Of a stretch of DNA of 64,000 nucleotides, positions 15,426 through 55,234 are shown piece by piece. The notes beneath the pieces are model-generated. The model worked only from the letters and a program-made list of their open reading frames with translations. It had not been told where the DNA came from and ran no database searches. This stretch comes from Cycloclasticus sp. 46_120_T64. Lineage in GTDB: Bacteria > Pseudomonadota > Gammaproteobacteria > Methylococcales > Cycloclasticaceae. Location: the NCBI GenBank assembly GCA_002162695.1, contig MAAM01000010.1:1-64000 (forward strand). Direction: 5' to 3'. The position numbers and the translations under genes are program-made. Positions within the stretch are counted from its first letter, which is position 1; every line of letters starts with the position of its first letter.

Positions 15426-16487
15426 ATGTCTTTTTTCAGACGTAAGAACCCAAATGTATTAGGCATTGATGTCAGTAGCTCAGCCGTAAAGTTGATTGAG
15501 TTGAGTCAGCACGGATCACGTTATCGCGTTGAAAGTTACGCGGTGATGCCGTTACCTGAGAACGCGATTATTGATAATAACTTTTCAGATATTGATGTTA
15601 TCGGTGAAACGATTGCTACGGTTGTTGAGCGTTCGGGCACGAAATTGAAGCAAGCGGCTGTTTCCGTCTCGGGTTCAGCCGTCATTACCAAAATTGTTAC
15701 GATTCCATTGCCTGAGAATGACGATGAGTTAGAGGCTCAGGTTGAGTTGGTGGCCGATCAGTACATTCCCTATGCCTTGGATGAGGTTAATTTAGATTTT
15801 AGTGTCATTGGGCCGAATGACAAAAATGCTGGGATGATAGACGTCCAGCTAGCAGCTTCAAGACGAGAAAACATCGATGACCGAGTAGCGGTATTAGATA
15901 TAGCGGGTCTAAAAGCAACAATTGTCGATGTGGAAGCGTATGCATTAGAAAATGCATATGGTCTGTTAGGTAGTGTTTTGCCTGATTATGGGCCTGAAGC
16001 CACCATTGCGATAGCCGATACGGGCGCTACGGTGACCACTTTAAATATTATTCATAAAAATAAAGTTATTTATTCGCGAGAACAAGGTTTTGGTGGTAAA
16101 CAACTAACCGAAGAAATTCAACGGCGTTATGGTTTGTCTTATGAAGAGGCCGGGATGGCTAAAAAACATGGTGGTTTGCCGGACAGCTACATATCGGAAG
16201 TACTAGACCCGTTTAAGGATGTAATGTGCCAGCAGATAGGCCGTTCCTTGCAATTCTTCTTTTCCTCTAGTTCCCAACATAGTGTGGATCAAATTATTCT
16301 TTCTGGTGGCACCTCATCATTACCGGGTATCGATGCCCTCTTGGAAGAAAAGCTTGGAACACCAGCGGTCGTCGCAAATCCATTTTCTCAAATGACATTA
16401 GCGGCAAAAGTTAAGGCGCAAGCGCTAAGTAATGACGCACCTGCAATGATGATAGCAACGGGGCTTGCTCTGAGGAGTTTTGATTAA
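15426..16487 (+). CDS. pilM: Type IV pilus assembly ATPase-fold protein PilM
   Basis: This 353-aa cytoplasmic actin-like protein links the T4P alignment complex to the inner membrane by binding the N-terminus of PilN. The N-terminal phosphate loop (VLGIDVSSSAVKLIEL) and the later ILSGGTSSLPG are the signature of the family. It is the first gene of pilMNOPQ, with AAAGGA upstream, and it overlaps pilN by 1 bp. Confidence 0.96.
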   Translation: MSFFRRKNPNVLGIDVSSSAVKLIELSQHGSRYRVESYAVMPLPENAIIDNNFSDIDVIGETIATVVERSGTKLKQAAVSVSGSAVITKIVTIPLPENDDELEAQVELVADQYIPYALDEVNLDFSVIGPNDKNAGMIDVQLAASRRENIDDRVAVLDIAGLKATIVDVEAYALENAYGLLGSVLPDYGPEATIAIADTGATVTTLNIIHKNKVIYSREQGFGGKQLTEEIQRRYGLSYEEAGMAKKHGGLPDSYISEVLDPFKDVMCQQIGRSLQFFFSSSSQHSVDQIILSGGTSSLPGIDALLEEKLGTPAVVANPFSQMTLAAKVKAQALSNDAPAMMIATGLALRSFD

Positions 16488-17041
16488 TGGCTAAAATTAA
16501 CCTTCTTCCTTGGCGTGAGGAGCTACGAAAACAGCGCCAGACTGACTTTCTGATATTTTTAGCGGCTGGCGTTGTGACGTCAATGCTGATTATGTTAGCG
16601 GTACATTTTTCGGTAGAAGGCCTTATCGATAGCCAGAATAGCCGTAACCGCTTTATTCAAAATGAGATTTCAGTATTGGATAAGAAAATTAAAGAGATCA
16701 AGCAGTTGGATAAGACTAAAAGCAAGCTGCTTGCAAGAATGGAAGTTATTCAACGTTTGCAAAGTAGCCGGCCGGAAATCGTGCATATGTTTGACCAATT
16801 AGCAAAAACGGTTCCGGAGGGTGTGTACTTAACCAAATTTAATCAAAGCGGTAAGAAGCTTTCGATTGCAGGTAATGCCCAGTCTAATACTCGAGTGTCG
16901 GCTTATATGCGCAACTTAGAACTATCACCTTGGTTAAAAGGGACGAGTCTTAATGTGATTCGTTCAAAAGGTGCTGACATGAACAGCTTTACTTTAAAGG
17001 TTGCTCAATCAAAGGTCGTTGAATCAAAGGAGGGCAATTAA
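16487..17041 (+). CDS. pilN: Type IV pilus inner membrane protein PilN
   Basis: This 184-aa protein has a conserved cytoplasmic N-terminus INLLPWREELRKQRQ (the PilM-binding motif), one membrane helix (about 22-43), a coiled coil and a ferredoxin-like periplasmic domain. It pairs with PilO. The start overlaps the pilM stop (TAATG). Confidence 0.96.
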   Translation: MAKINLLPWREELRKQRQTDFLIFLAAGVVTSMLIMLAVHFSVEGLIDSQNSRNRFIQNEISVLDKKIKEIKQLDKTKSKLLARMEVIQRLQSSRPEIVHMFDQLAKTVPEGVYLTKFNQSGKKLSIAGNAQSNTRVSAYMRNLELSPWLKGTSLNVIRSKGADMNSFTLKVAQSKVVESKEGN

Positions 17042-17042
17042 T

Positions 17043-17624
17043 ATGAATTTTCAAGATATTAATTGGGACTTTAATGAAGCAGGGAGTTGGCCCGCTGTCA
17101 TCAAGGTTGCTGCGGTGGTGTTGGCTAGTATTCTAGTGATGGTTGCTTGGGTTTATTATGACACTGTTGATCAGTGGGATAGTCTAGCTAAAGTTGAAAA
17201 GAAAGAGCTTACGTTAAAGAAGACCTTTGAGCGTAAGCAGGCGAAAGCGGTGAACTTAGGTGCATATAAACAGCAATTAGCGGATATGCAGAAACAGTTT
17301 GGGGCGATGTTACAGCAGTTGCCAAATAAAACGCAGATTGCTGATTTATTGGTTGATGTATCGCAAGCGGGTTTAGCGAGTGGCTTGGAGTTTAATTTGT
17401 TTCAACCATCGGCTGAACGTAGGAAAGACTTTTATGCAGAAAAGCCCATTCGTTTAACGGTGGTCGGTAGTTATCATGAGTTTGGTGAATTTGTGAGTAA
17501 TTTGGCAGCTCTACCCCGTATTGTTACCTTACATAATGTGTCGTTGACACCAGGAAAGGGCGGTAACATGACAATGAATGCAACGGCGAAGACTTATCGT
17601 TATTTAGATGAGGATGATAAATAA
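17043..17624 (+). CDS. pilO: Type IV pilus inner membrane protein PilO
   Basis: This 193-aa partner of PilN has one membrane helix (about residues 19-37), a coiled coil and a periplasmic domain. I set the start at the ATG at 17043 (MNFQDINWDF), one base after the pilN stop, because upstream in-frame codons lie inside pilN. Confidence 0.95.
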   Translation: MNFQDINWDFNEAGSWPAVIKVAAVVLASILVMVAWVYYDTVDQWDSLAKVEKKELTLKKTFERKQAKAVNLGAYKQQLADMQKQFGAMLQQLPNKTQIADLLVDVSQAGLASGLEFNLFQPSAERRKDFYAEKPIRLTVVGSYHEFGEFVSNLAALPRIVTLHNVSLTPGKGGNMTMNATAKTYRYLDEDDK

Positions 17625-18163
17625 TGACTTCCTTTAACCCTAGTCAATTAATGAAGAACCTTAGTTATATTGCTTTTTTTGCTGTGCTTTCAGGTTGTAC
17701 GAGTGATGAGTTTGATGATCTGAAAGGGTATATTGCTCAGGTGAAGGCAAAACCGGCAACGGCAATCGAACCCATGCCAGTTATTAAATCGTATGAGTCG
17801 TACGTGTATGTGGCAGATAATTTAAGAAACCCGTTTCAGCCACTTGAAGAGCCGCAGCCATTTGAAGATATGGCCGACATTGATGGGCCTGGGCCTGACT
17901 TGAATCGAGAAAAAGAAGAGTTAGAGGCGTACCCACTGGATACTCTACGAATGGTTGGTATTTTATCGAGGAATAATGAGCTATGGGGTCTTGTTAGAGC
18001 GAGAGATGGCGTCATTCACCGTGTTCAACCTGGCCAATATTTAGGGCAGAATTTTGGTAAAATTATTGGGGTTCATGAGCAGCAAATTGATTTGGCTGAG
18101 TGGGTTAATACATCTACCGGTAAATGGTTAGAACGAGATGCTTCTTTAGCGTTGATCGAATAG
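17624..18163 (+). CDS. pilP: Type IV pilus lipoprotein PilP
   Basis: This 179-aa inner membrane lipoprotein (lipobox VLSGC, Cys25) joins PilNO to the secretin. The linker carries the usual NLRNPFQP motif, and the C-terminal beta domain includes the L-x-M-VG-L signature (LRMVGIL). Its start overlaps the pilO stop (TAATG). Confidence 0.95.
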   Translation: MTSFNPSQLMKNLSYIAFFAVLSGCTSDEFDDLKGYIAQVKAKPATAIEPMPVIKSYESYVYVADNLRNPFQPLEEPQPFEDMADIDGPGPDLNREKEELEAYPLDTLRMVGILSRNNELWGLVRARDGVIHRVQPGQYLGQNFGKIIGVHEQQIDLAEWVNTSTGKWLERDASLALIE

Positions 18164-18278
18164 TTGATTATGGATGAACATCGTATCTACTCTAATTTAA
18201 AGCCCATAGGGCGAAACTTATGCCTCTGGGGCACGACACTGAGAATTATTAATGAAATACGTAAATAAGGAAAAATTC

Positions 18279-20417
18279 ATGCGCAAATTAAAGGTAAGTG
18301 AAAGGGGTGTGGATAAGCAAAAAAAAATATCGCTTATTAAAGGCTTGTTAATGCTTTCTTGCTGGGTGTCTATGTCCTTGTTATCTGTACACGCAGCGGT
18401 GTTAAAGAATATTCAGTTCGCAGGCTTGCCGGGCAATAAGGTTCAGGTTGAGCTGGTGTTAGATTCGGCTCCGGAGCAACTCAAAAGTTTTAGTACTGAT
18501 AACCCTGCGAGAATAGCGATTGACTTGATGGGGGTTAGTAACGAAGCCGGTAAAACGACGATTCCTGTTGATATTGGTAAGGCCGTTAGTATTAGGGCGC
18601 TTGAGGCCGGAGGTCGAACGCGCGTAGTGGTTAACCTGAATGCGGCAACACCATATTCAACAAAGATTGAAGGCCATAGCGTTTTTTTAACACTAGGGCA
18701 AGTTAACGGTTCAACGGAAGCGGTAACTGAAAAACTCGCAGTCAGCCATAAAATGGCTGAAGCTAACGCGGTTACTGGGATAGATTTTAGACGAGGCGAA
18801 GAAGGCGAAGGGCGGGTGTTGGTCAACCTAAGTGACACCTCATCCATTGTCGACGTTAAGCAAGAGGGTGATAAGGTCATCGTTGATATAAAGGGAGCTT
18901 CCTTGGCTGAGGAGTTGGGGAATAGATTGGATGTGTTAGATTTCGCAACCCCAGTGAAAACTATCGACGTTACATCGACTGGTGATGGCGTGCGCTTATC
19001 AATTACCCCGGTTGGTGTTTATGAGTTTTTATCGTATCAAGCAGATAAGTTGCTGATCGTCGAATTTAAACCGTTAACCCCACAAGAGCAACAAGAGTTG
19101 GCGGCCGAAAAATTCCCATTTACAGGCGAAAAATTATCATTGAATTTCCAAAGTATTGAAGTTCGTTCGGTATTGCAGTTATTAGCCGATTTTACGGATA
19201 TGAACTTGGTGGCTAGTGATTCGGTGGGTGGTAGCGTTACCTTAAGGCTTAATAATGTGCCTTGGGATCAAGCTTTGGATATCATTTTGAAGAGCAAAGG
19301 TTTGGCTAAGCGTATTAGCGGCAATGTGATGATGGTCGGGCCGCAGGCGGAAGTTGCCGCGCAAGAGAAACTAGAGCTGGAGGCAAAGAAGCAAGTTGTT
19401 GAGCTGTCTCCTTTGTTAACAGAGTTTTTTGAAGTGAGTTATGCAAAAGCTGCGGACTTGGTAACGATCTTAAGCTCGGCGGGTGGTAATGGTGGTAGTG
19501 GTAGTGGCTCTAATGACCGCTTAATTTCACAGCGAGGAAGTGTAACGGTCGATGCTAGAACTAATACATTGTTGGTGCAAGAAACGGCCGAGAAGTTGGT
19601 AGAGATACGAAAAATTGTTGAGCGTTTAGATCGCCCTGTGCGTCAAGTGATGATCGAATCACGTATTGTTATTGCTAATGATGACTTTACCCGTGACTTA
19701 GGTGTGAGGTTTGGTTTGAGCGGTATTGATCAAAGCAACGATGCTTTATCTGTTGTGGGTGGGGGACTTGCTGGTAATGTGATCCCATCGCAAATTATTT
19801 TTGATGCGCAAGCGGCTGGCGCCGAGGGTTTGTTGGTCGATTTGCCTGCGAACAGCCCGGCTGGTGCGATTCAATTCGTAGTTGGTAAGATTGGTAGCTC
19901 TCTATTGCAGTTAGAGCTATCTGCTTTACAAACTGAAGCGAAGGGTGAGGTTATTTCAAGTCCGAGAGTTATTACTTCTGACCAAATTGAAGCAGAGATT
20001 AGCCAAGGTGTAGAAATTCCATTTCAGGAAGCCTCGTCTTCAGGCGCGACTTCAACCAGTTTTGAAGAGGCTGAGTTGAGACTGACGGTTACTCCAAGAA
20101 TTACCCCGGATGACCGAGTTAATTTAGAGTTGAATATTACCAAGGACTCACCTGATTTCTCGAATATTCAACCAGGTGGGGTGCCGATTAATACCCAGGA
20201 AGTATCGACTACAGTGCTAGTGAATAATGGTGATACGGTCATACTTGGTGGTATCTATGAGCGCTCTAAAGATCATAGTGTGCGTAAGGTTCCTTTCTTT
20301 GGTGACCTGCCTGGTGTTGGTGTTTTGTTTAAGAAAGAGTTTAAGCAGGACAATAATCGTGAGTTGTTATTCTTCATTACTCCTAAAATCTTGAAGGATA
20401 ATTTATCGGCGAATTAG
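18279..20417 (+). CDS. pilQ: Type IV pilus secretin PilQ
   Basis: This outer membrane secretin of about 712 aa forms the pilus exit pore. It has a signal sequence, two AMIN domains (peptidoglycan binding), an STN/N0 domain, an N1 domain with a GGNGGSGSGS-rich loop, and the C-terminal secretin barrel (VISSPRVITSDQ, then TPRITPDDRVNLE). I prefer the ATG at 18279, with AAGGAA six bases upstream, over the ATG at 18252. The 88-bp gap after pilP contains no gene. The operon ends in a strong terminator. Confidence 0.95.
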   Translation: MRKLKVSERGVDKQKKISLIKGLLMLSCWVSMSLLSVHAAVLKNIQFAGLPGNKVQVELVLDSAPEQLKSFSTDNPARIAIDLMGVSNEAGKTTIPVDIGKAVSIRALEAGGRTRVVVNLNAATPYSTKIEGHSVFLTLGQVNGSTEAVTEKLAVSHKMAEANAVTGIDFRRGEEGEGRVLVNLSDTSSIVDVKQEGDKVIVDIKGASLAEELGNRLDVLDFATPVKTIDVTSTGDGVRLSITPVGVYEFLSYQADKLLIVEFKPLTPQEQQELAAEKFPFTGEKLSLNFQSIEVRSVLQLLADFTDMNLVASDSVGGSVTLRLNNVPWDQALDIILKSKGLAKRISGNVMMVGPQAEVAAQEKLELEAKKQVVELSPLLTEFFEVSYAKAADLVTILSSAGGNGGSGSGSNDRLISQRGSVTVDARTNTLLVQETAEKLVEIRKIVERLDRPVRQVMIESRIVIANDDFTRDLGVRFGLSGIDQSNDALSVVGGGLAGNVIPSQIIFDAQAAGAEGLLVDLPANSPAGAIQFVVGKIGSSLLQLELSALQTEAKGEVISSPRVITSDQIEAEISQGVEIPFQEASSSGATSTSFEEAELRLTVTPRITPDDRVNLELNITKDSPDFSNIQPGGVPINTQEVSTTVLVNNGDTVILGGIYERSKDHSVRKVPFFGDLPGVGVLFKKEFKQDNNRELLFFITPKILKDNLSAN

Positions 20418-31358: not shown

Positions 31359-33350
31359 CTAAGGTGTTGAGGATACTGCGCTAAGACTATTATGTTTGAT
31401 TGTTCGAATAACATTTCTCAGTTTATTTATTCGCCTAGCGTATTTTCGTACTCGCCCAGCAGAAGACGTTGCAATATCATTTAATAACACGTTTGATTCA
31501 TCTATACGCTTTAAGCCAATGAGTGCATGTGCCTGCATTAGCCCGAAACGTGGGTTACGCGGGTTAAGTTTTAAGCCTAAATCAGCCGTGGACAATGCCT
31601 CACCAAAACGATTTTGTTTCATCCTAATAGCAAATAAATGTACTAAGGAATAATAGCGGTGTGCGGATTTTCCTTTGGGTTTATCAATAAGCGCTTGTAG
31701 CCAGCTAGCCACATCGTCAGCCTTAGATAAACACCGTTCATTGCCTGACATGACACACTTGATGGCAACATCCAATGCACGAATTCCCCATGCACCCATG
31801 GGCTTCTCACGAATGGTTTTGGCAATATACGTTGGGCGGGCAAGCTCCAATGAGCTGAGTTGGCTTTCTAATTGGGAAAATGATTGAGGCGTCACCATGC
31901 TCAAGCTAATGAGGAACCCAGCCTCTTGGGGTGATAGTTCAGCCGCTCGTAAGTAATAAGCATACGAACCTTCAAAGTCTTTTTCACGTTTACGTAAAAT
32001 TTCGCCACGTAGGTATTGGCTGCTGGGGGAGTCGGGGTGGTTCATCGCAAGGCTTTCAATGAGTGCCGATTCGCTGCTCCAGTATTGGGCACGATTAAAC
32101 GTGCCGAAGCCCAAACAAAAAATAATCGTACTAATTAATGCTATTCGAACGGCTTTGGGCATTTTATCGGCTAAAGCAAAAACTAATAAGTAGCTGATGC
32201 CGAATAATGGGCCAAGTGCCGGTAAATAGTTACGGTGCTCGTGAATTATTTCTAGCGGAAATACGGTAGATTCAAGACTGTGCCCAACGAGGAACCACAG
32301 TACCGAAAAGGCAAAAACAGGAAAGCGTTTGCGCCAGACAATAGTTAAACTCAATAAAATGATAATGCCAGCAATACTCGGAGCGGTCGTTGTAATAGAC
32401 AGCAGATCCGAACTCAGCGGGAAATCATCATGAAATAGGCCCATTGTTTGAATATTGGGCATAACGATCATAAATAAATAAAACCACAAAACGCGAGGTT
32501 CGGTTAACACACGCTCAAGCAGGGTAAAAGGTCGGCCTGCATAGCCGCCGATAATAAATGTTGGGTGTTGGAACCAATACACCAAGCCGCCCAGTATGGG
32601 TAGGGCTAAAAACACAATAAAAAACCAGCGGACTTTTTTTATCGTTTCACTACGGCCAGATAATTGGCTTAATAAAGTAAATTCGAGCACACCGATATAA
32701 ACGGGCAATAGAATCGCATTTTCTTTACAGGCAGCACCTAGTATGGTGCCCGCAATAAGCCCTAAAGACATCAAGCATAATCCTTGATAGGGCTTTTCTT
32801 CCAGTGATAACCGCCCAACCACATAAATACAGGCACCCATCAACATAAACATACTGGCCATGCTGGTCATGCGTTGGACTACATACAGCACGCTGGTGAG
32901 TAAGAATGCGTGTAGCGCCCAAACAAGCGTACCGCTTATAGCAAAGGCTAAACGTGGGTTAGATAGGTTTGTACGTTGCGCCCAAGGCATTCGTGCAATA
33001 CAGGGCCAAAGTAAGGTTAGCAACCAAAATACCAAACCAGAATTGATGCAATGAACGGCAATATTAGTCAGCTTGAAATGAACAGACTTAAAACCCTCAG
33101 CAAAATAATAATTTAAGCCGAATGACAGGGCGGGAATCACACGTTTTAACGGTCCACTCTCATTAGATAGAGCAGAGCGCACTATGTCTTGTTCTGTTAA
33201 CTCATGAATAGGAACATTAGGGTTTTCTAGAATATTTAGCTGATCATCAAAAACAAACGGCCCATACCAGCCGGGCGAATAAACCAGGAAAATAATGATG
33301 CAGCATAAACTCCAGCTTAGAAGAGGGGATGTGAATATATTCTTATTCAT
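31359..33350 (-). CDS. Multipass GT-C-like glycosyltransferase with C-terminal TPR
   Basis: This 663-aa membrane protein has a first helix followed by a periplasmic FDDQLNI motif (Asp35-Asp36), about 10-12 further helices to residue 425, and a soluble C-terminal part with TPR-like helices. The early acidic pair and topology recall GT-C glycosyltransferases of the TMTC/O-mannosyl type. It lies just downstream of the minor pilin operon on the same strand, so glycosylation of pilins is an attractive guess. It could also act on surface polysaccharide. No close named homologue is recognised. Confidence 0.6.
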   Translation of the reverse strand: MNKNIFTSPLLSWSLCCIIIFLVYSPGWYGPFVFDDQLNILENPNVPIHELTEQDIVRSALSNESGPLKRVIPALSFGLNYYFAEGFKSVHFKLTNIAVHCINSGLVFWLLTLLWPCIARMPWAQRTNLSNPRLAFAISGTLVWALHAFLLTSVLYVVQRMTSMASMFMLMGACIYVVGRLSLEEKPYQGLCLMSLGLIAGTILGAACKENAILLPVYIGVLEFTLLSQLSGRSETIKKVRWFFIVFLALPILGGLVYWFQHPTFIIGGYAGRPFTLLERVLTEPRVLWFYLFMIVMPNIQTMGLFHDDFPLSSDLLSITTTAPSIAGIIILLSLTIVWRKRFPVFAFSVLWFLVGHSLESTVFPLEIIHEHRNYLPALGPLFGISYLLVFALADKMPKAVRIALISTIIFCLGFGTFNRAQYWSSESALIESLAMNHPDSPSSQYLRGEILRKREKDFEGSYAYYLRAAELSPQEAGFLISLSMVTPQSFSQLESQLSSLELARPTYIAKTIREKPMGAWGIRALDVAIKCVMSGNERCLSKADDVASWLQALIDKPKGKSAHRYYSLVHLFAIRMKQNRFGEALSTADLGLKLNPRNPRFGLMQAHALIGLKRIDESNVLLNDIATSSAGRVRKYARRINKLRNVIRTIKHNSLSAVSSTP

Positions 33351-33477: not shown

Positions 33478-35304
33478 TTACTGCACTTGAAGATCTAGAG
33501 ATACGTCTACTGTCGTATTTGACGAAATATTTCTATCTACGATAGCATCAGAACTAGTGTAAATTTCAGATGTAATGTTTTCAGCAGAGACAGGCGTAAT
33601 AGGGTAGAACTCTCCTCTCGAGGCGTTAGAACAGGTTGTTGTTGTACCACCACCTGCATAGAAGAACTCTTCGTTAGTAATGTAATTTCTTCCGCTAGAG
33701 GGGGTATCTGTTTGGTTACATGAGCTATTATCCATGTCATCATGCTGGTCTGTATAGGCTGTAGTAAAACTTTGGTCTCCGGTATTTGCACCACTTTTTA
33801 AGACGTCAACATCCGGCACCCAACCGGCCAATTGTGTTAGGTTTACTTCATAAAAAGGCACCCTGTCTAATGGAACATCTGCCGCGCTATAGTGAGTTGT
33901 CTGATTGGTTATTTGGGTGAAAATTCCAGATGGTGGGTAGTCCATATAAACGCCACGAACTTGAATATTTCTATGGTTTGCTGAGCCATCGTCAAATAAT
34001 AAATGGTCTATAGAGCCCGCGTTATTTGTAAAATTTGTTGTGCTGTTGATGAAGGAGAGGTCTATGGTCGCATAACTATTAAGAGCCGCACTAGAGCTGG
34101 TCGCTGCTAATATATCTCTTACAAGAGTCGTTACGTAACTTGAGTACTTGCTGATGTTAGCATCTTGAAGAGTCGTCGTCATGCCTGATAGGCCGTCACT
34201 ATCGTTAAAATAAGAAGCAGGTATCATGTTAAAGCCGACTAATTTCCAAGGGTCAGTGATGCGTAAGACGCCATCTATACGTTTTAGTCGGCAGACTTTG
34301 AAATCACCCGCAAGGTCAGCGCCATCACGACAACAGAAAGTACAGGCATCATCTTGATTTTCACCGCCACCGTTGTCGACAGCAACTTTAGAAATTTGGT
34401 CTGAACCAGATAAATGAATGGTTGTTGTTATATCCGTAATAGTTCCTTCTATGTTATCCCAAGTAACATATCCGAAGAGGTAGGAGCTAGTTTTTGTAGA
34501 GCCGCTGGTTTTACACTTACACGCTAATGTTCTAAATTCTTCGCGTCTTTGAGTGTTATTTTGGGAGTTATAGGTAACGGTTTCAAATTTAACCATGGTG
34601 CTATCGCCTTTTTTACTGACATCCGGTAGTGGCTTGCTAGTTTCCTTTAGGAGCTCCCCAATACCTAATTCAACGGGTATAACATCAGGAGCCGCTAGGG
34701 GGTCGTAAGCTACGACAGGGCCTGTTCCACCGGTTACAATCGCGCCACCTAAATTAGTGTTGACGAAGCTATATGAGTCTACGATGGTATCGAAGGATAC
34801 AACGCTATTAGTGTTATCACCTACGCCATCCCATCTAACAACAATATGAACTTTCTTGAACGAAGGGTCATCGGCAACAGCTGTTAACGTAGCTATTGAA
34901 TTGACGGTGGAATAATAATAGTCATCGGATGTCCAACTTAAAGTGAACGTATCGCTACCACTAGCAATATCGCCAGCTTGAATTCGTCCCCCTTTATTAT
35001 CATCAATATGGGCAAAAGCTAAGGATAGCGGATACTTTAAACTGGTTACCGAGTTTGCAGCTAAGCCGTCCCATTCGACAGGAGTGGAGATGTCACTGGT
35101 TGTAATATAAACAAATCGTCTTAAATCATTGATTTTCTTTTGAGCAATGCTTGCAGCAGTAGCGCGGTGGTTGGCATCACCTCCGCTTCTAATTAAAGTT
35201 GTTTGTAGCTTTGATACAGCGAGGATGCCGATGCTAAGTACTAATACTGCTAACATAACCTCAATTAAGCTGAAGCCAGAAGACGTTGAATATGTATGTT
35301 TCAT
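33478..35304 (-). CDS. Oversized PilV-like prepilin
   Basis: This 608-aa protein has a class III prepilin leader, cleaved G10/F11 (SSG-FSLIEVMLAVLVLSIG), with Glu at +5, as in PilV. Normal PilV is about 150-200 aa. Here a region of about 400 residues is added, with cysteine pairs CKC (262, 264), CTFCC (321, 324, 325), C338 and two further cysteines near the end. It is the last gene of fimT-pilW-pilX-pilV. The extension is rich in Thr/Ser/Asp and beta-prone, and could form a pilus-tip adhesin. No pilY1 is found in this cluster. Confidence 0.75.
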   Translation of the reverse strand: MKHTYSTSSGFSLIEVMLAVLVLSIGILAVSKLQTTLIRSGGDANHRATAASIAQKKINDLRRFVYITTSDISTPVEWDGLAANSVTSLKYPLSLAFAHIDDNKGGRIQAGDIASGSDTFTLSWTSDDYYYSTVNSIATLTAVADDPSFKKVHIVVRWDGVGDNTNSVVSFDTIVDSYSFVNTNLGGAIVTGGTGPVVAYDPLAAPDVIPVELGIGELLKETSKPLPDVSKKGDSTMVKFETVTYNSQNNTQRREEFRTLACKCKTSGSTKTSSYLFGYVTWDNIEGTITDITTTIHLSGSDQISKVAVDNGGGENQDDACTFCCRDGADLAGDFKVCRLKRIDGVLRITDPWKLVGFNMIPASYFNDSDGLSGMTTTLQDANISKYSSYVTTLVRDILAATSSSAALNSYATIDLSFINSTTNFTNNAGSIDHLLFDDGSANHRNIQVRGVYMDYPPSGIFTQITNQTTHYSAADVPLDRVPFYEVNLTQLAGWVPDVDVLKSGANTGDQSFTTAYTDQHDDMDNSSCNQTDTPSSGRNYITNEEFFYAGGGTTTTCSNASRGEFYPITPVSAENITSEIYTSSDAIVDRNISSNTTVDVSLDLQVQ

Positions 35305-35331
35305 TTTATTTACCTACCTCAAAATGAGAAG

Positions 35332-36642
35332 TTACGGCCGAATATCTACCCAGCTATATTTTTGTTTGGCTAAGCCAAATGAGTCCAAGTCTTCGACAAA
35401 AGAGCCTAGTACAAACTCATCATAAACTTGGGTATAACCACCGGTTGATAAGTTAGTCGGATCCTCAGCAATTAATGAGCCGTGAATAGTAGCTGTGCCA
35501 TTCAAAGAAATATCTTGAAAACCAAATGCTAAGCCAAATAAATCGGTGTTCGCATTAATCGATAAATCATCACGAACAACCAGCAAGATGGGTCCGTCTC
35601 GGCTCGCGATAATTGAATTAGCCGGTACACTGCAATCACCAGATACAGCAACAATGGTTGATTTAGTAAATGTTGCGGCTAATGACTCTAAGCCTGAACA
35701 GTCAGTTATTTCTTGAACATTCGGTACGGTCAAAATGTCATCATAGTCATTTAAGGCAGGAAATAGGTAATGAAAAGGGGAGTCAGGAAATTCGCTAGAA
35801 CCAACCTCAACGATATCGTAGTTAGGGGTGGTGGAACTATCACTTAAGGTTTCTCCAACGACACAAGAGCAAGCTTTCCATGTAACGGTGTCATCGAGCG
35901 TTTCAGAGCATATATCTGCACCATCACGGTAGCTACCAAGCTGGCATGTCTGCCATGAAGCAGCACCGCCTGATAGGTCTATCGTTGAAACCCATGCTGA
36001 TATTGGTACGCCTTCTCCGCCGCCATTAGGGTCGGCTACTATTGTGAAGCTACCGCTTAATTTAATAACGGGTGTCATAATGGGAGGGATTTTTCCCGGT
36101 GTTAAAAGTGTAATTTGAGTATAGGATGTTTGCGCGTAAGCATCGCCTGTTTCATCAAGGCTTTTACCGGTACCAATGGCTGTCAGGATATTGCCAACAG
36201 AGCTGGAGTTTGTATAGGTCAGGTAGGTTTGAGATTCTATCCCGCTTGCTAGTGTTATACCTTTTCCACCATCTTGTAAGGACTCAATGGTCGTTGTTGA
36301 TGTTATAGGGTCATAAACTAAATTATAGCTAGAGCCGGCACATGGAAATTGTGAGGCTACAGTTGCACAGTCAACCCAAGGGTATGTTCCGCCAATTGTT
36401 CCATCGTATAATCCGGTGTTATTTGTAATAAATGACGCTGCTTGATCTAATGCGGCATCCGCTGCCGCTTGTGCCTCTTTGTGTCGATATTCATTACCCG
36501 CGATCCGTTGATCCATTACGCCAACACGAGCGGCAAAAATGGTAATGAGTGTGATGCCAAGCAATAACACGATGGACACCAATAAAGTTGCTGCGCCATG
36601 TTGATAAGAGGGTGAATGCTTATGGTTATTTAATTTCATCAT
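35332..36642 (-). CDS. pilX: PilX-like minor pilin, enlarged
   Basis: This 436-aa protein has a PilX N-terminus (QHGAATLLVSIVLLLGITLI, lacking Glu at +5 as expected for PilX/GspK-type tip subunits). Family members are usually about 200 aa. The extension contains Cys233, Cys245 (RDGADIC) and the pair CSC at 258-260, echoing the RDGAD and CKC motifs of the neighbouring PilV-like protein. The C-terminal third is beta-helix-like. It lies 5 bp after pilW. Confidence 0.78.
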   Translation of the reverse strand: MMKLNNHKHSPSYQHGAATLLVSIVLLLGITLITIFAARVGVMDQRIAGNEYRHKEAQAAADAALDQAASFITNNTGLYDGTIGGTYPWVDCATVASQFPCAGSSYNLVYDPITSTTTIESLQDGGKGITLASGIESQTYLTYTNSSSVGNILTAIGTGKSLDETGDAYAQTSYTQITLLTPGKIPPIMTPVIKLSGSFTIVADPNGGGEGVPISAWVSTIDLSGGAASWQTCQLGSYRDGADICSETLDDTVTWKACSCVVGETLSDSSTTPNYDIVEVGSSEFPDSPFHYLFPALNDYDDILTVPNVQEITDCSGLESLAATFTKSTIVAVSGDCSVPANSIIASRDGPILLVVRDDLSINANTDLFGLAFGFQDISLNGTATIHGSLIAEDPTNLSTGGYTQVYDEFVLGSFVEDLDSFGLAKQKYSWVDIRP

Positions 36643-36647
36643 AAACC

Positions 36648-37313
36648 TCAGTCTTTAGGGTCGTCGTTTCTAATGCGAATAGTTTCTATAAGTGTTCGTC
36701 GAGGGTCATTAGCATCAGAACTATGGGGCAAATCAGTCTTGCCGGTCAGGGTAATGGTCACGTCGTATAGGCTCACCCCTGTGCTTGTCGTTAAAGCAAC
36801 AATACCTGTATTGATGGTTGAGCCGAGTTTGTTGCCACTGCCCGAGAAGTCAAACTCTAAGGTTGTGATTTCAGCCATATTTACATCAGTAATCGACTCG
36901 CCAAAACTATTACACGTAGTACTGCTCGCAGCACTTGCATTGCTGGCCCACTTTATTTGCTTCGCAGTTGTATCTAAACGGAAACCAAAGTGCTCATTAG
37001 AGTCTCTATCTCCATTACCATTGAGGTCATAAGAGTACAAAATACAAGATGAGTTGGGACGCTCGAACGAAGCCATGAAACTAATTTCAGTTGAATCAGC
37101 TGAGTATCCCGTTCTTTTAAGTTCATCGACCATAAATGTCATAGCGCCTCTTAGTTCTTGATTAAGGCGAATCATCTTCATGTTTTCAACATTGGTTCGA
37201 ACGTTCGTTGAAAAGACGGAGATGATAACAGCAGTAACGAATAGCCCTAAAACCATGGCTATCATCATTTCAACAAGCGTTAATCCTTTTTGCTGAGCAG
37301 GGTTGATTAACAT
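36648..37313 (-). CDS. pilW: Minor pilin PilW
   Basis: This 221-aa prepilin has a leader cleaved in QKG-LTLVEMMIAMVLGLF with Glu at +5. The PilW-type segment LRGAMTFMVDELKRTGY follows. The gene overlaps fimT by 7 bp. Minor pilins prime pilus assembly and sit at the tip. Confidence 0.88.
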   Translation of the reverse strand: MLINPAQQKGLTLVEMMIAMVLGLFVTAVIISVFSTNVRTNVENMKMIRLNQELRGAMTFMVDELKRTGYSADSTEISFMASFERPNSSCILYSYDLNGNGDRDSNEHFGFRLDTTAKQIKWASNASAASSTTCNSFGESITDVNMAEITTLEFDFSGSGNKLGSTINTGIVALTTSTGVSLYDVTITLTGKTDLPHSSDANDPRRTLIETIRIRNDDPKD

Positions 37314-37861
37314 GATTCGTACCCTCCAAACCCTGTGTCAGAACATATTCGAACACGGCCTAAAGAGCTAACCATAACAATAGCTTTTCTGCCATCATTA
37401 AGGAAAGTTGCAGTTCCATTTGAAAAAGAGCCAGATGAGTTCTCAGAGAAGCCTCTAAGTGGTTCAAAGCCAGTTTCTTCTGGAGAGCTGCCAGGAAAAG
37501 CGGCAGTTAGAGTTGTATTACCATAACTATCACTGGTTACAACTTTTTCGATGCCATCAATCGAGCAATCATTAGATGTCGCGCAGTCGCAGGAAACGTC
37601 TTCTTTTAGGCCGTAACACCATGCTGGGCTTGTGCCCCCAAAAGAAAGAATAACTTCATTATTTCGCTTAATAGTTTCTGTTTTTGCAAAGATAAGGTCG
37701 GCAAAAAGGTTCTCAGCAGCCCCTTTGAGTTTCCGGCCTTCAAGAATTGAAAACATAGACGGCGCAGCCAAAGAAACAAGAACCCCCAATATCACCGCGG
37801 TGATTAGTAGTTCTATCAGCGTAAATCCTTTTTGCGTATGTTGGTTTTTCTTTAGGTTCAT
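37307..37861 (-). CDS. fimT: FimT/GspH-family pseudopilin
   Basis: This 184-aa prepilin has QKG-FTLIELLITAVILGVL and the GspH-type continuation (LFADLIFAKTETIKRN). In related bacteria FimT binds DNA for natural transformation, or FimU serves as a minor pilin; which applies here cannot be told. It is the first gene of the minor pilin operon and is divergent from pilE. Confidence 0.85.
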   Translation of the reverse strand: MNLKKNQHTQKGFTLIELLITAVILGVLVSLAAPSMFSILEGRKLKGAAENLFADLIFAKTETIKRNNEVILSFGGTSPAWCYGLKEDVSCDCATSNDCSIDGIEKVVTSDSYGNTTLTAAFPGSSPEETGFEPLRGFSENSSGSFSNGTATFLNDGRKAIVMVSSLGRVRICSDTGFGGYESC

Positions 37862-38035
37862 ATAAAGCGCTCTCCTTGGTGGCTTTAATTATAGTGCTGA
37901 TGGTAATACTTTCAAGGTGTTAGGCATACCATTTATCGTGTGAGAATAGCCGTTTGTCTATTTGTGTGCTATTTTTGATGGAAATAATGTTTTTATCGTT
38001 AGCATATGGCTAACTTATTGTACTGGAGCAGACAG

Positions 38036-38431
38036 ATGCGTACGACGCCCTCAAATGGATTTACTTTAATTGAATTGATGATTGTGGTGGTTATTATTGG
38101 AGTTTTAGCAGCAATTGCGCTCCCTGCCTATCAGGGTTATTCTCAGAAGGCGCGGCGTTCAGATGCTAAACATGCCTTGTTGGATATACAGCTTAATCAG
38201 GAAAAATGGCGGGCGAATAATAGTAGTTATGCTTCGGCGCTTAGTGATTTGAATTGGACGACTACATCCGTTGATGAGCATTATGATCTAGCGATTACTG
38301 CGGTTGCAACAAATGCTTATACCTTAACTGCAACGGTTGATTCTGCTGGTTTGCAAGCCAATGATACGACTTGCGCAACGATGACATTAAATCAAAATAA
38401 TGATAAAACACCAGTATCCGGTTGTTGGTAA
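38036..38431 (+). CDS. pilE: Type IV pilin, PilE class
   Basis: This 131-aa pilin has an 8-residue leader MRTTPSNG cleaved before [18 protein letters not shown], Glu at +5, and a C-terminal disulfide loop between the cysteines in TTCATM and SGCW. GGAG lies 9 bp upstream of the chosen ATG. Size and position beside the minor pilin cluster fit the PilE minor pilin. It could still be a major pilin, as no other is in the window. Confidence 0.88.
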
Positions 38432-38572: not shown

Positions 38573-39715
38573 TTAACCATCATAATTATCAATCAGCTCC
38601 ATGCCGTCATCATGATGATCATCGTCATCACTTTTGAAGGTCGATTTTTTCTCGGCATCACCGAGTTTTATCATTAAACGTACCTCATTGCTGGAATCGG
38701 CGTAGTTAACGGCATTTTCGTAACTAATGTCGCCACTGGCGTAGAAATCATACAGGGCCTGATCGAAGGTTTGCATGCCTTGTTCGGTGGAGTTCTTCAT
38801 CAATTCTTTGAGTTTGTGAACATCTCCTTTACGGATAAAGTCGGAGGCGAGCGGGGTGTTAAGCATAATTTCAATCACCGCTTTTCGGCTTTTGCCGTCA
38901 ATGGTGGGTACTAATTGTTGGGCGATCATCGCCTTTAAGTTCAGCGATAAATCCATAAAGAGTTGTTTATGCGCGTCTTCTGGAAAGAAGTGGATAATGC
39001 GATCGAGTGCTTGGTTGGCGTTATTAGCGTGCAGGGTGGATAGGCAAAGATGCCCCGTTTCGGCGAAGGTCATGGCGTGATTCATGGTTTCGCGGCTACG
39101 AATTTCACCAATTAGGATGACGTCAGGTGCTTGGCGCAGGGTGTTTTTAAGGGCGATTTCATAGGATTCGGTATCAATGCCTACTTCACGTTGGGTGATG
39201 ACGCAGCCATCGTGTTCGTGCACGTACTCCACCGGATCTTCAATGGTAATGATATGCCCTGAGCTGTTCCTATTGCGGTGTCCAACCATCGCGGCTAAGG
39301 AGGTGGATTTACCCGTGCCGGTTGCGCCAACAAAAATAATGAGGCCTCGTTTGGTCATTGAAAGCTCGGTGAGAATGGGCGGTAAGTTCAGTTCATCAAT
39401 GGTGGGGATAGTCGTTTCAATGCGACGTAGTACCATGCCGGCATCGTCTTTTTGTACGAAAGCGCTGACCCTGAATCGCCCAATATCTGGGCGTTGGATA
39501 GCGAACTGACATTCTTTGGTGTCTTCAAACTCTTGCTTTTGGTCATCGCTCATGATGCTTTGAACAACATCCAGTGCTTGACGGGCGCTTAATCGAGTTT
39601 TTGATACTTGCTGTAGTTTGCCGTTTACTTTGATAGTGGGGGCCCAGCCGGAGGTGATAAATAAGTCGGATGCTTTTTTATGAACGACGAGTTGTAATAA
39701 TGCATCAAAATCCAT
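38573..39715 (-). CDS. pilU: Type IV pilus retraction ATPase PilU
   Basis: This 380-aa accessory retraction ATPase has Walker A (GATGTGKST, 130-138), Walker B (ILIGEIRSRET) and the LCLSTLHANNA His box. The C-terminus ends in an acidic, His-containing tail (DDDDHHDDG). It follows pilT by 22 bp in the same operon. Confidence 0.95.
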   Translation of the reverse strand: MDFDALLQLVVHKKASDLFITSGWAPTIKVNGKLQQVSKTRLSARQALDVVQSIMSDDQKQEFEDTKECQFAIQRPDIGRFRVSAFVQKDDAGMVLRRIETTIPTIDELNLPPILTELSMTKRGLIIFVGATGTGKSTSLAAMVGHRNRNSSGHIITIEDPVEYVHEHDGCVITQREVGIDTESYEIALKNTLRQAPDVILIGEIRSRETMNHAMTFAETGHLCLSTLHANNANQALDRIIHFFPEDAHKQLFMDLSLNLKAMIAQQLVPTIDGKSRKAVIEIMLNTPLASDFIRKGDVHKLKELMKNSTEQGMQTFDQALYDFYASGDISYENAVNYADSSNEVRLMIKLGDAEKKSTFKSDDDDHHDDGMELIDNYDG

Positions 39716-39737: not shown

Positions 39738-40775
39738 TTAGCTGAATGATTTTTTATCGACGGCTTTCATTTTGGCGTCTTGCCGAGTAATGAGGCCGGC
39801 TTGCACCAACTCGGTGAGGTGCTGATCGAGGGTTTGCATGCCATCTTTGCGACTGGTTTGAATGGTGGAATACATTTGCGCAATTTTATCTTCACGAATG
39901 AGATTTCGGATGGCGGCTGTGCCGGTCATGATTTCCCAAGCAGCGATGCGTCCGCCGCCAATTTTTTTCATTAGGGTTTGTGCAATGACCGCGCGCAGTG
40001 ATTCGGATAACATCGAGCGCACCATGCCTTTTTCGCCTTCTGGGAAAACGTCAATGATCCTGTCGATGGTTTTAGCGGCGGAACTGGTGTGTAGGGTGCC
40101 AAATACTAAGTGACCTGTTTCGGCGGCGGTGAGAGCTAGACGTATGGTTTCTAAATCACGCATTTCGCCAACCAGAATAATGTCGGGGTCTTCCCTTAGC
40201 GCAACCCGTAGCGCTTCACTGAAACCGTGGGTGTGTTTATGCACTTCCCGTTGGTTGATTAGGCATTTTTTACTTTTATGAACAAATTCAATCGGGTCTT
40301 CGATGGTGAGAATATGCTCATAAACGTTATCGTTTTTGTAATCCATTAACGCCGCAAGGGTTGTCGATTTACCGGAACCTGTTGGCCCCGTTACTAAGAC
40401 GATACCTCGTGGTACGTTGATGATTTCTTTGAATGACTGCGGGCAGCCTAAGTCTTCTAAGCTGAGAATGTCCACCGGAATGGTTCTAAAGACCGCAGCA
40501 GCGCCACGATCTTGATTGAATGCGTTAACCCGAAAGCGTGCGGTGCCGGGCAGTTCAAAGGAAAAATCGACCTCGAGGAACTCTTCATAATCACGCCGTT
40601 GCCGATCGTTCATGATGTCATAAATCATGCTATGCACTTCTTTATGCTCAAGCTCTGGCATATTAATGCGGCGGATATCCCCGTCAACACGAATCATTGG
40701 CGGTAAACCGGCTGATAAGTGTAAGTCGGAGGCGTTGTTTTTGGTGCTGAAGGCGAGTAAATCTGAGATATCCAT
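39738..40775 (-). CDS. pilT: Type IV pilus retraction ATPase PilT
   Basis: This 345-aa hexameric motor depolymerises pili for twitching. Walker A is GPTGSGKST (130-138), Walker B is ILVGEMRDLETI, and the His box VFGTLHTSSA and the retraction motif AIRNLIRE are present. It is divergent from yggS across 138 bp. Confidence 0.97.
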   Translation of the reverse strand: MDISDLLAFSTKNNASDLHLSAGLPPMIRVDGDIRRINMPELEHKEVHSMIYDIMNDRQRRDYEEFLEVDFSFELPGTARFRVNAFNQDRGAAAVFRTIPVDILSLEDLGCPQSFKEIINVPRGIVLVTGPTGSGKSTTLAALMDYKNDNVYEHILTIEDPIEFVHKSKKCLINQREVHKHTHGFSEALRVALREDPDIILVGEMRDLETIRLALTAAETGHLVFGTLHTSSAAKTIDRIIDVFPEGEKGMVRSMLSESLRAVIAQTLMKKIGGGRIAAWEIMTGTAAIRNLIREDKIAQMYSTIQTSRKDGMQTLDQHLTELVQAGLITRQDAKMKAVDKKSFS

Positions 40776-52542: not shown

Positions 52543-52618
52543 GCCCGGATAGCTCAGTCGGTAGAGCAGAGGATTGAAAATCCTCGTGTCCATGGTTCGA
52601 ATCCGTGTCCGGGCACCA
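52543..52618 (+). tRNA. tRNA-Phe (GAA)
   Basis: This is a 76-nt cloverleaf with an encoded CCA. The anticodon loop TTGAAAA gives GAA, the T loop is GGTTCGAATCC, and the acceptor GCCCGGA pairs with TCCGGGC. It is the intact copy at the island edge. Its 3' half from position 31 is duplicated at 59261-59306. Confidence 0.97.
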
Positions 52619-52664
52619 TTTACAGTAAAGCCTCAACATCTTTTAGATGTTGGGGCTTTTTTGT
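52573..52664 (+). repeat. attL: 92-bp direct repeat, left copy
   Basis: It matches 59261-59352 at 91 of 92 positions. It begins in the anticodon stem/loop of tRNA-Phe and ends after the terminator. The crossover lies somewhere within it, probably in the anticodon loop, a common site for tyrosine integrases. Confidence 0.9.
52630..52662 (+). terminator. tRNA-Phe terminator (inside the repeat)
   Basis: An 11-bp stem, GCCTCAACATC / GATGTTGGGGC (one T-G pair), is followed by TTTTTT. The right-hand copy at 59318-59350 has one base change (A to G) that keeps a wobble pair. Confidence 0.85.
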
Positions 52665-52666
52665 TG

Positions 52667-52687
52667 GTGTAACACCAGTGTAACTTT
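52667..52687. promoter_or_regulatory. Left integrase arm-type site
   Basis: Two copies of GTGTAAC separated by ACCA sit 3 bp inside attL. The same 21-bp sequence occurs next to attR. Such paired short repeats flanking the core fit arm-type integrase or excisionase sites. Confidence 0.6.
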
Positions 52688-52916
52688 CAAAGTGTTTTAC
52701 CAGAGTATTTTAAATGTGGATATTAGGCTTGAAACTCGGAACGCCTCGTTTTATTGACCGCAGCCCTTGATGCTCTAACCGTTAGCTGTTCGTTTCCTTT
52801 TAGACTGTAGCCCTTGCATCATCTAGCAGGAGCTGTTTCTCTTTTTCTTTAATCCACGCTTCTTTTTGGCTTCATTAGCAATAATTTGGGGATTCTTGGC
52901 TTTTTTGCCAGCTTTT
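52688..52916. other. Island left-end region without an intact gene
   Basis: I see no intact gene. Two out-of-frame minus-strand fragments (52800-52925; one ends QLLLDDARATV before a stop at 52800-52802) look like the tail of a decayed lysine-rich protein. A rough tandem duplication of about 45 bp (AGCCCTTG...AGCTGTT...TTTC) spans about 52770-52855. Confidence 0.35.
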
Positions 52917-53066
52917 TTATTTAAGCGTCATATATATTGAGTAGCAGACCATCACGATAATAAAACCCCATGTAAATTTTGACGTTATACGTTTCCCACA
53001 ATGCGGACATTCACGCGCTCCACTGCTTATTTCTTTATTACATTCAGAACAGTTTATTAGTGACAC
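52917..53066 (-). CDS. 49-aa zinc-ribbon membrane protein
   Basis: This is a short frame with a GTG start at 53066, AAAGGA upstream and stop TAA at 52917-52919. Cys6-x2-Cys9 (CSEC) and Cys20-x2-Cys23 (CPHC) form a zinc ribbon, followed by one hydrophobic helix (about 31-46) and a short tail. It resembles small zinc-ribbon proteins of unknown role. The size would let it escape a length cutoff. It is the last gene of the island's leftward set. Confidence 0.6.
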   Translation of the reverse strand: MSLINCSECNKEISSGARECPHCGKRITSKFTWGFIIVMVCYSIYMTLK

Positions 53067-53120
53067 TCTATAAATCCTTTTATCGGTAAATGTTAATGAT
53101 ATTTCAAAGATGGAGCTTTG

Positions 53121-53612
53121 CTAGTTAGTGCAACCGCTCACGCTGCCCCCGTGTATTACCTCTTTTATGCTGTCTTTTTCAATTAGATAATCAATAGTTA
53201 TCCCCATAGCCGGATATTTTGACGACTGTATACACTGCCCTTTTTTTTGCAATGGGCTGCTTTTATACATTTCCCGTACACGGGTTTTGAATTTAGCATC
53301 GGAATGTGAATACCAACGAGAAATAGCATTATTAATCATCATCTTGTTTGCATCCCTTTCAAAGCCGTTCCCTGCCATACAGCTGGGGCTATCAAAAGTA
53401 AGCACCCCAACAGTTTGTGTTAAGCGTCCAAAAAAATACTTGCTTTCTTTTTCTACGGATTGCCTATACCAGCAATCCTGACCATTATGATTTTGTATGT
53501 AACCTTTTGTAAGGTATTTAGCACTGCCAGAAATTGCAAAAGATGAATGGAGCAGCATCGCAAATGTTAAAAACACCGGTGCCTGCTTACTAATTCTTTT
53601 AACGCTCATCAT
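53121..53612 (-). CDS. Secreted four-cysteine protein, unknown
   Basis: This 163-aa protein starts at the ATG at 53612, preceded by GGAGAG; a longer frame reaches 53675. A signal peptide (KRISKQAPVFLTFAMLLHSSFA) is followed by a mature part with four cysteines (QDCW, PSCM, GQCI, SGCT), which suggests two disulfides in the periplasm or outside. I recognise no family. As cargo of a mobile island it might modify the envelope or act on other cells, which is a guess. Confidence 0.65.
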   Translation of the reverse strand: MMSVKRISKQAPVFLTFAMLLHSSFAISGSAKYLTKGYIQNHNGQDCWYRQSVEKESKYFFGRLTQTVGVLTFDSPSCMAGNGFERDANKMMINNAISRWYSHSDAKFKTRVREMYKSSPLQKKGQCIQSSKYPAMGITIDYLIEKDSIKEVIHGGSVSGCTN

Positions 53613-53776
53613 TAATCTCTCCATAGTATAAAAATGACTTCTTTTTTTAAGTATAGGTGTAGGTATATAAACCAAAAGTTAAGGTTATCTAATGGGAGCT
53701 TCTTTTGCTAACCCTTTCTTCATTTTAAAAATATGTTTATTCCTCATCTAACCCCCGTACCGTTTTGGGCAGCCGT

Positions 53777-54340
53777 TCACTTAGTTGCATTCATCACTTG
53801 CTCATAAATTTTATCTTGAATGCTTACCTCCTTAGCTTCTGCCCTAATCCGCTTAGCCTCTCGCAACAGCCCTACCAAACCCAAACCTTCAGCTGGATGC
53901 TCGCCATTAGGTGTAGTGGCTGCAATCTTACTAGGCGCAAGAACCCCTAAAAGCTCACAGCGCTTTGCCACGCACTTATGAATAACGTCTAAGAACTTTG
54001 GGTTGCCGTGCGGCATTTCTGTTCGCGTTTGTTTTTTTACTTCTACCCCTGATTCCTCTTCGATAGTCACAGTTATTTTCGGTTGCTTTGAAACCACCCA
54101 TTCCTCGTAAGCAAGCCTTTCTAAGTTGTCTAGTTTCGCTATCTCCTCAGCTCTTGCTAAATTAAAATCTATATCTGCTGATTCTATCCACCGTGTACGC
54201 AAAGCTTTAAGGTGCAAGCTAACCGACTGCTGCGTTAAGCCGATAATCTCACCTATTTCTACCTGTGTTTTCTTAGAAAGATACAACCTTCCTATTTCAT
54301 TCCTTTTTGCTGCTATTTCTATTTTCTTACGTCTGCTCAT
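53777..54340 (-). CDS. HTH protein resembling phage small terminase subunits
   Basis: This 187-aa protein has an N-terminal basic segment and a helix-turn-helix (TQVEIGEIIGLTQQSVSLHLKAL, about 26-48), a helical stretch (AEEIAKLDNLERLAYEEW) and a C-terminal part (NPKFLDVIHKCVAKRCELLG) seen in phage DNA-packaging-like proteins. The ATG at 54340 (MSRRKK) follows AAGAGA. No large terminase is nearby, so it may redirect a helper phage's packaging or simply be a regulator. Confidence 0.55.
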   Translation of the reverse strand: MSRRKKIEIAAKRNEIGRLYLSKKTQVEIGEIIGLTQQSVSLHLKALRTRWIESADIDFNLARAEEIAKLDNLERLAYEEWVVSKQPKITVTIEEESGVEVKKQTRTEMPHGNPKFLDVIHKCVAKRCELLGVLAPSKIAATTPNGEHPAEGLGLVGLLREAKRIRAEAKEVSIQDKIYEQVMNATK

Positions 54341-54462
54341 ACAAGTCTCTTGATACAAGTAAATGATTAAAATAATTACCTATACGTGGTAATAGTAGGT
54401 GTGGTGTATATTTGCCACTTGGTGCCTTTGTAAGTCATTGATTCCTTCCTCTTACAAGTAGC

Positions 54463-54542: not shown

Positions 54543-54554
54543 ACACCGGTAACT

Positions 54555-54935: not shown

Positions 54936-54942
54936 AAAGCCC

Positions 54943-55233: not shown

Positions 55234-55234
55234 T

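Follow-up and report, generated by a model that had tools for sequence, protein, structure and literature searches.

What stands at the tip of a type IVa pilus when the protein usually found there is missing? The usual view is that PilY1 is a tip adhesin and primes type IVa pili, and in PilY1-type pili the minor pilins carry it at the tip. The question is raised by a minor-pilin locus in Cycloclasticus sp. 46_120_T64, from a genus of marine hydrocarbon degraders. The DNA analyzed is positions 1 to 64,000 of contig MAAM01000010.1 (assembly GCA_002162695.1), and this whole stretch of 64,000 nucleotides is referred to as the window. The locus encodes unusually large PilX and PilV proteins. We will argue that in Cycloclasticus a PilY1-free tip built of modular pilins probably takes the place of PilY1, an explanation that is neutral with respect to the ligand and is the best we can offer, although it is well short of certain.

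Two alternative cassettes in one slot

The genes of the locus and of its conserved flank are as follows.

37307 to 37861, minus strand: fimT, a GspH/FimT-like minor pilin of 184 amino acids (aa), the first gene of the cassette (PF12019, 38.1 bits)
36648 to 37313, minus strand: a pilW-like minor pilin of 221 aa (PF07963; 54.5 bits with PRK10557, under its cut-off of 120, a model that we take to be E. coli PpdB)
35332 to 36642, minus strand: pilX, 436 aa (PF14341, PilX_N, 35.1 bits)
33478 to 35304, minus strand: a pilV-like gene for a giant minor pilin of 608 aa (prepilin N-terminus, PF07963, 24.3 bits)
38006 to 38431, plus strand: a divergent pilE-type pilin of 141 aa (PF16732, 76.6 bits)
38573 to 39715 and 39738 to 40775, minus strand: two PilT-family ATPase genes flanking the slot beyond the pilE-type gene (open reading frames in a flank conserved among relatives), presumably pilT and pilU by their sequence resemblance

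The series fimT-pilW-pilX-pilV is tight, with gaps of at most 27 bp and an overlap of fimT with pilW. PilX belongs to PF14341, as its score exceeds the gathering score of 25.5 and 16/16 homologues match the family at E ≤1. The 608-aa protein scores 45.1 with the PilV equivalog model TIGR02523, under the cut-off of 52.2 and over residues 9-61 only, so that by this model it is called PilV-like and not PilV; PilV is used below for short. Both large pilins are kept as full-length proteins in other genomes.

A first-pass annotation, made from the letters of the window, had noted that pilV is the last of the four pilin genes and that the cluster lacks pilY1, and had asked for a search of the rest of the genome. 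That search bore it out: PF05567 (PilY1) has no match in the whole source genome (2.21 Mb, 99.97% complete). Control genomes in the same search were likewise without a match. As a positive control, PF05567 finds PilY1 in 72/101 relatives, seven congeners among these; the model therefore works and the absence from the source genome is meaningful. Additionally, the source genome has one PilX_N gene and one PilV-type match only, so no second minor-pilin set was found in it.

In Cycloclasticus one of two cassettes occupies the slot that lies between hemE and the PilT-family genes. Cassette B, the one in the window, encodes FimT (177-200 aa), PilW (211-234 aa), PilX (429-483 aa) and PilV (583-667 aa), and its pilV is followed by a gene for a membrane/TPR protein of 652-677 aa. 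Cassette A encodes FimU, a PilV of 145-181 aa, PilW, a PilX of 157-180 aa, a PilY1 of 1149-1312 aa and PilE. The window PilV and PilX are 3.4-4.2 and 2.4-2.8 times as long as their counterparts in the PilY1-type congeners, which agrees with the oversize reported in the first-pass annotation. Among 18 genomes of the genus, six carry B (the window, G005, G008, G010, G011 and G014), eight carry A, none carries both, and four are unreadable or without the machine. Seven of the eight A carriers were recognized by PF05567; the cassette was read in G003, G004, G012, G015 and G017, and G001 and G009 were assigned by PF05567 and a short PilV only. The eighth, G006, carries the four leading genes of A, after which a PilY1-like start is truncated where its contig ends. 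In the remaining four, G013 has the gene at a contig end, G002 has weak matches to the window PilT-family protein, and G007 and G016 have no match to that protein, to PilX_N, to PilV or to PilY1. In these two, the whole pilus or at minimum this set of genes has apparently been lost. A strict exclusion of PilY1 by cassette B characterizes Cycloclasticus.

Switching, mosaicism and spread

The two cassettes appear to have replaced each other more than once. In a tree of six flanking genes from 10 loci (L049 and L050 were left out because they are short), the A/B label needs at least three changes, and strongly supported branches force all three. A single B clade is rejected on this tree (approximately unbiased test, p 2e-50); L041, which has B, is sister to L047, which has A. 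The genes of the slot also differ from their surroundings in conservation. Identity to the window among the B loci is 34-43% for pilV, 39-63% for pilX, 45-72% for fimT and 56-62% for pilW, while the flanking genes are 62-97% identical to those of the window and the flanking PilT-family motor genes 76-97% (the 39% of L050 at the gene at 39738 is a paralogue match, as that gene is missing from its contig). Conservation in the region is lowest for PilV and PilX. The best partner of the window fimT is in L040 (75% vs 47-54% for others), that of pilX is in L039 (65% vs 43-47%), and that of the neighboring putative glycosyltransferase gene is in L038 (88%). With a different best partner for each gene, the genes of cassette B have no single common history and the cassette is a mosaic. 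In the A loci, the L046 PilY1 shares just 34-35% with its counterparts in L045, L047 and L048, against 81-82% identity in the flanking genes. The cassette exchange is explained most simply by recombination in the conserved flanks.

It could be argued instead that cassette B is an accessory set that never replaces PilY1, and that the B strains simply lost PilY1 together with its function. Differential loss from an ancestor with two cassettes would also give the A/B pattern, and B-type clusters coexist with PilY1 in other families (G027, G049, G074 and G145), in tandem with cassette A in G074. The shared slot, the three or more changes, the mosaic genes and the divergent PilY1 of L046 point to exchange rather than plain loss, and no congener has both cassettes. 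We regard this alternative as unlikely.

Cassette B was seen in Cycloclasticus, in Methylophagaceae and in scattered gammaproteobacteria. A model of the PilV module (residues 203-357, alignment A5) matched 19/301 genomes of the order and 4 of 368 other genomes in a class-wide sample. PilY1 was found in 4/19 of the order genomes with the module and in 158/282 of those without it (Fisher p 0.0037). A PilX frame 400 aa or longer is present in 16/101 relatives, with PilY1 in 6/16 of these vs 66/85 of the others (p 0.0023). The first-pass annotation would have given up its reading had such extensions been common in PilV and PilX; for PilX this came halfway true, as the long form is not unique to the window. 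Large minor pilins are an architecture that recurs in the order. PilY1 is absent in 10/10 further cassette-B genomes (behind L051-L063), mostly of the Methylophagaceae type, for which completeness is not given; L055, L057, L060 and L064 repeat the genomes G011, G010, G005 and G074 and were excluded from the counts. G469, which has the same family code as G312, has both the cassette B module and PilY1, and G370 has a PF05567 match under the cut-off (25.6 bits).

Related clusters in G073, G024, G069 and G099 have a long PilX and a long Cys-rich PilV without CxxCC, and all of these genomes also have PilY1. The order fimT-pilW-long pilX-long Cys-rich pilV, with PilV extensions that lack CxxCC, was observed at L106, L107, L108 and L111 (pilX is split in L111), and these clusters suggest that PilV may have several modules without relation to each other. 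The module of the window PilV also occurs in a PilV at 16-1968 of L062, a contig labelled Ignavibacteriales, which is probably mis-binned gammaproteobacterial DNA or the result of a transfer. Literature searches listed no study of tip cassettes without PilY1 for either Cycloclasticus or Methylococcales.

Predicted structure of the enlarged pilins

Three parts of the two large proteins will be referred to.

35413 to 36111, minus strand: beta-solenoid module inserted in PilX, about residues 178-410 (VIA-align matches to the predicted model)
34777 to 35304, minus strand: pilin part of PilV, residues 1-176, tentatively GspI-like (XcpV, 5vtm_V, Z 8.2 over 80 residues, model 42-176)
34234 to 34698, minus strand: Cys-rich module of PilV, residues 203-357, CxC ... 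CxxCC ... C (alignments A3 and A5)

The mature PilX begins AATLL and has no Glu at mature position 5 (E5). It was modelled with AlphaFold2 from 16 sequences, with a predicted local distance difference test (pLDDT) score of 74.8 and a predicted template modelling (pTM) score of 0.59. The best Foldseek match of the model is ComZ of Thermus (6qvi, E 1.3e-4). In VIA-align, residues 178-410 match ice-binding proteins at Z 12-14, and ComZ (6qvi_B) aligns at Z 11.6 over 279 residues with a root-mean-square deviation (rmsd) of 8.3, so that the two domains may be oriented differently. The S. sanguinis pilin PilA aligns at Z 9.3 and spans residues 40..435 with only 111 aligned. Taken with the ice-binding match, this span points to a pilin whose last strand comes after an inserted solenoid; in ComZ the insertion point is likewise before the last strand, as reported in PMC6561018. 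A ComZ-like solenoid, inserted in the pilin sheet before the last strand, is seen in PilX in the predicted model only. At the sequence level, PF11999 (Ice_binding) was found in 3/16 PilX homologues (best E 3.7e-4), and the PilX sequence profile matched an antifreeze chain at E 0.0049. The window PilX itself scores 13.0 with PF11999 (DUF3494), under the gathering cut-off of 28.7, which leaves a resemblance of fold. With PilX_N and an ice-binding-like solenoid, PilX has the build of a modular type IV pilin.

The likeness to ComZ brings in the suggestion that cassette B is a DNA-uptake tip, with PilX as a ComZ-type DNA receptor, FimT as a DNA-binding pilin, and adhesion secondary. The fold closest to PilX is that of a protein that binds DNA (PMC6561018), the gene order is that of the V. 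cholerae competence pilus (PMC12040237), ComEC is present in the source genome, and the window FimT (37307..37861) has GRVR at its end, a motif that marks FimT proteins which bind DNA (PMC8897410). The motif G[RK]x[RK] is, however, present in 7/7 A-type FimU and in 17/28 B picks, and 4/6 Cycloclasticus B FimT lack it (the three-gene context was readable in 28/32, and L099, with a split PilX, and L103 were mis-picked). GRxR in FimT was therefore rejected as proof of DNA uptake, being equally present in A-type FimU. ComEC also occurs in 10/14 control genomes and says little. With 7 K/R vs 30 D/E and an isoelectric point of 4.05, the PilX solenoid is highly acidic, which speaks against DNA, yet the ComZ solenoid is also without positive patches (PMC6561018). 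DNA as the ligand of cassette B is possible by analogy with ComZ but unsupported, and the DNA-uptake reading as a whole seems to us doubtful, although worth keeping in view.

The PilV model (pLDDT 70.8, pTM 0.66) has a pilin head that resembles XcpV, a borderline match (Z 8.2, 80 residues, rmsd 2.7) with next rows at Z 8.0, 7.4 and 5.9, all pilins. The row at Z 5.9 is Thermus PilA2 (6qvf), the pilin that binds ComZ (PMC6561018). With an N_methyl segment followed by about 430 residues without a known domain, PilV also has a modular build. Neither Pfam nor NCBIfam gave a credible match past the N-terminal segment, so the extension was rejected as a known domain. The PDB sequence profile search returned weak matches to the pilin N-terminus only (best E 0.047), and weak rows over residues 355-608 (Z <4) were not taken as evidence. 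The missing fold match, for a region modelled only within the whole protein, is no proof of a new fold.

The first-pass annotation had reported CxC pairs in both proteins, and these are present at C262/C264 of PilV and C258/C260 of PilX. L042 and L044 lack the pair in PilX, so the pairs of the two proteins do not reflect shared ancestry. Across 19 homologues of PilV, C262, C264, C321, C324, C325 and C338 do not vary. An RDGAD motif beside a cysteine had also been singled out in both proteins. It is literally there, but it carries no meaning: in PilX it is confined to the window (1/16 aligned sequences), and in PilV it stands where the family motif CxxCCRDHHD has RDHHD, of which it is a degenerate version. 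As a functional link between PilV and PilX it was rejected as a coincidence. HHD follows the CxxCC cluster in 22/32 long PilV proteins, the same 22 have HxHY downstream, and 10, the window included, have neither (32/33 loci were counted, as L094 has no readable PilV start; the rows are related, and the HxHY segment is missing as a block in the short PilV forms). That the paired HHD/HxHY forms a metal site is a fair guess from sequence.

These motifs bear on another reading, in which the enlargements are hypervariable decoration that helps to escape phages or predators, and the tip that bears them is otherwise ordinary and has no dedicated ligand. PilV and PilX are indeed the genes that vary most in the region, and cassette genes have recombined between species. 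The six invariant cysteines and the co-occurrence of HHD and HxHY argue for a conserved function of the module, and we consider pure decoration improbable.

Proposed tip, neighboring genes and known systems

From what was observed (the sequence, the gene order around the locus, the mutually exclusive distribution of the cassettes within the genus, the tree and the mosaic genes) and from the predicted folds, we infer a tip location, an order of subunits, disulfides, ligand binding, glycosylation and a functional replacement of PilY1. The preferred reading, a PilY1-free tip of modular pilins, would work as follows. The set appears to correspond to GspH-GspJ-GspK-GspI by position and predicted fold, and fimT-pilW-pilX-pilV would encode the priming and tip complex of the only type IVa pilus detected, without PilY1. 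PilX, in the GspK position and without E5, would cap the filament and present its inserted beta-solenoid, as proposed for ComZ. PilV, in the GspI position, would sit beside PilX and present a disulfide-rich C-terminal module, and FimT and PilW would connect the pair to the shaft. The bulky modules of PilX and PilV would form an exposed ligand-binding surface in place of PilY1, giving the two proteins a putative adhesin or tip role. Cassettes A and B would alternate at a single locus, with several switches in the past, and the genes for the exposed proteins would in addition recombine with each other. The first-pass annotation had proposed a tip complex that replaces or augments PilY1; replacement fits within the genus (same slot, either/or occupancy, one PilX_N, ComZ-like fold), and augmentation fits other families.

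Several points weigh against this reading. PilY1 absence was called with PF05567 only, and an adhesin of another family would escape it. Because G074, of another family, has A and B in tandem, some lineages may reflect loss from an ancestor with both cassettes. Outside the genus, PilY1 occurs in 4/13 genomes with the PilV module vs 151/270 without (p 0.09) and in 6/10 with long PilX vs 59/73 others (p 0.21), so that a general exclusion of PilY1 by cassette B is unsupported there. The genomes share ancestry, and the p values of 0.0037, 0.038 and 0.0023 overstate their independence. Both structural models are of middling confidence, and in the whole-protein model residues 180-608 of PilV have no confident fold match (none in Foldseek at E ≤0.001). 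The tip location, surface display and ligand binding of PilX and PilV are putative.

It is tempting to go further, though only tentatively, and to regard the pilus tip as a unit exchangeable by recombination at a fixed locus, so that one machine would receive either a PilY1 tip or a PilY1-free tip of a ComZ-type solenoid pilin and a giant Cys-rich PilV. Its exposed modules would be shuffled between species to change grip, with PilV HHD/HxHY binding metal at the tip in most of the wider family and both halves lost together in some lineages, that of the window included. The natural swap of a whole tip set between close relatives offers a ready comparison of what PilY1 adds and of whether modular pilins suffice, and the paired histidine motif is a concrete testable site.

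The neighboring genes and other features of the window may be set beside the cassette.

31359 to 33350, minus strand: candidate TMTC-like polytopic glycosyltransferase of 663 aa with a TPR C-terminus (about 10 hydrophobic segments; DD pair D35/D36 in the first loop)
37888 to 37915, minus strand: promoter-like TTGAAA-16-TATAAT upstream of fimT (a consensus match only, 11/12)
15426 to 20417, plus strand: probable pilM-pilN-pilO-pilP-pilQ genes of the same pilus machine, which we take to be these from their order, size and N-terminal sequence

The number of promoter-like sites in the region is not above that in shuffles. The TMTC-like gene lies beside pilV in 6/6 Cycloclasticus B loci, with a further reading frame between them in three, and a search of six A loci did not turn it up (the contigs of L049 and L050 are short and do not reach that side). 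The intervening frame encodes 236 aa (L038 5207-5917, L040 4611-5321, L041 4742-5452) and presumably resembles a RAYT/REP-associated transposase. G200, of another family, has a 43% identical homologue after pilV, G074 has a different membrane-plus-TPR protein (PF10131) at that place, and the Methylophagaceae-type loci have no such glycosyltransferase gene adjacent. No family model, structure or solved-glycosyltransferase sequence matched the 663-aa protein; TPR_16 scores 22.9 bits, under the cut-off, in the window protein, and TPR is above the cut-off in L041. The TMTC O-mannosyltransferases have a membrane domain, a DD motif in the loop after the first transmembrane segment and then TPR, and prokaryotic homologues are mentioned (PMC7801869). 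The 663-aa protein appears to have the same layout, and differs in that its membership goes by architecture only. It probably glycosylates one of the cassette pilins, and PilV, PilX or PilE would be the candidate substrate.

Elsewhere in the window, an open frame at 1-2078 (minus strand) runs past the window edge and may encode a further surface adhesin of the same cell; its start seems to resemble the retention module found in giant adhesins of the RTX/LapA type. At 52543-59098, a tRNA gene (52543-52615), small phage-like reading frames, an int-alpA RNA (56192-56258, RF02996) and an integrase-like frame (57905-59098, named from its N-terminal sequence) suggest that a mobile element has integrated next to the tRNA.

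How does the locus compare with known systems? The FimU-PilV-PilW-PilX-PilY1-PilE operon of cassette A occupies the same slot in congeners and has four equivalent minor-pilin positions, and differs by its short PilV and PilX and its PilY1 of 1149-1312 aa. For the V. cholerae competence set we presume both the protein sizes and the lack of PilY1. The V. cholerae set FimT-PilW-PilX-PilV (VC0858-VC0861) shares the four-gene order and a capping PilX without E5 (PMC12040237), whereas in the window both of the large pilins have extra modules. ComZ of Thermus thermophilus (PDB 6qvi) likewise has a large ice-binding-like beta-solenoid before the last pilin strand and is a proposed filament-tip pilin encoded among minor pilins (PMC6561018). 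It showed no sequence similarity to PilX in the PDB sequence search, and PilX in turn has PilX_N, a gammaproteobacterial fimT-pilW-pilX-pilV operon and an enlarged partner pilin. The modular type IV pilins (S. sanguinis PilB and PilC, CofB, TcpB) also carry a bulky extra module that is thought to be displayed at the tip (PMC8179133). Here, in contrast, two enlarged pilins stand in one cassette that alternates with a PilY1 cassette, and the PilV module matches no known domain. The proteins are thus of a known kind, modular minor pilins, to which this locus adds the natural swap of cassettes A and B at one place in the genome.

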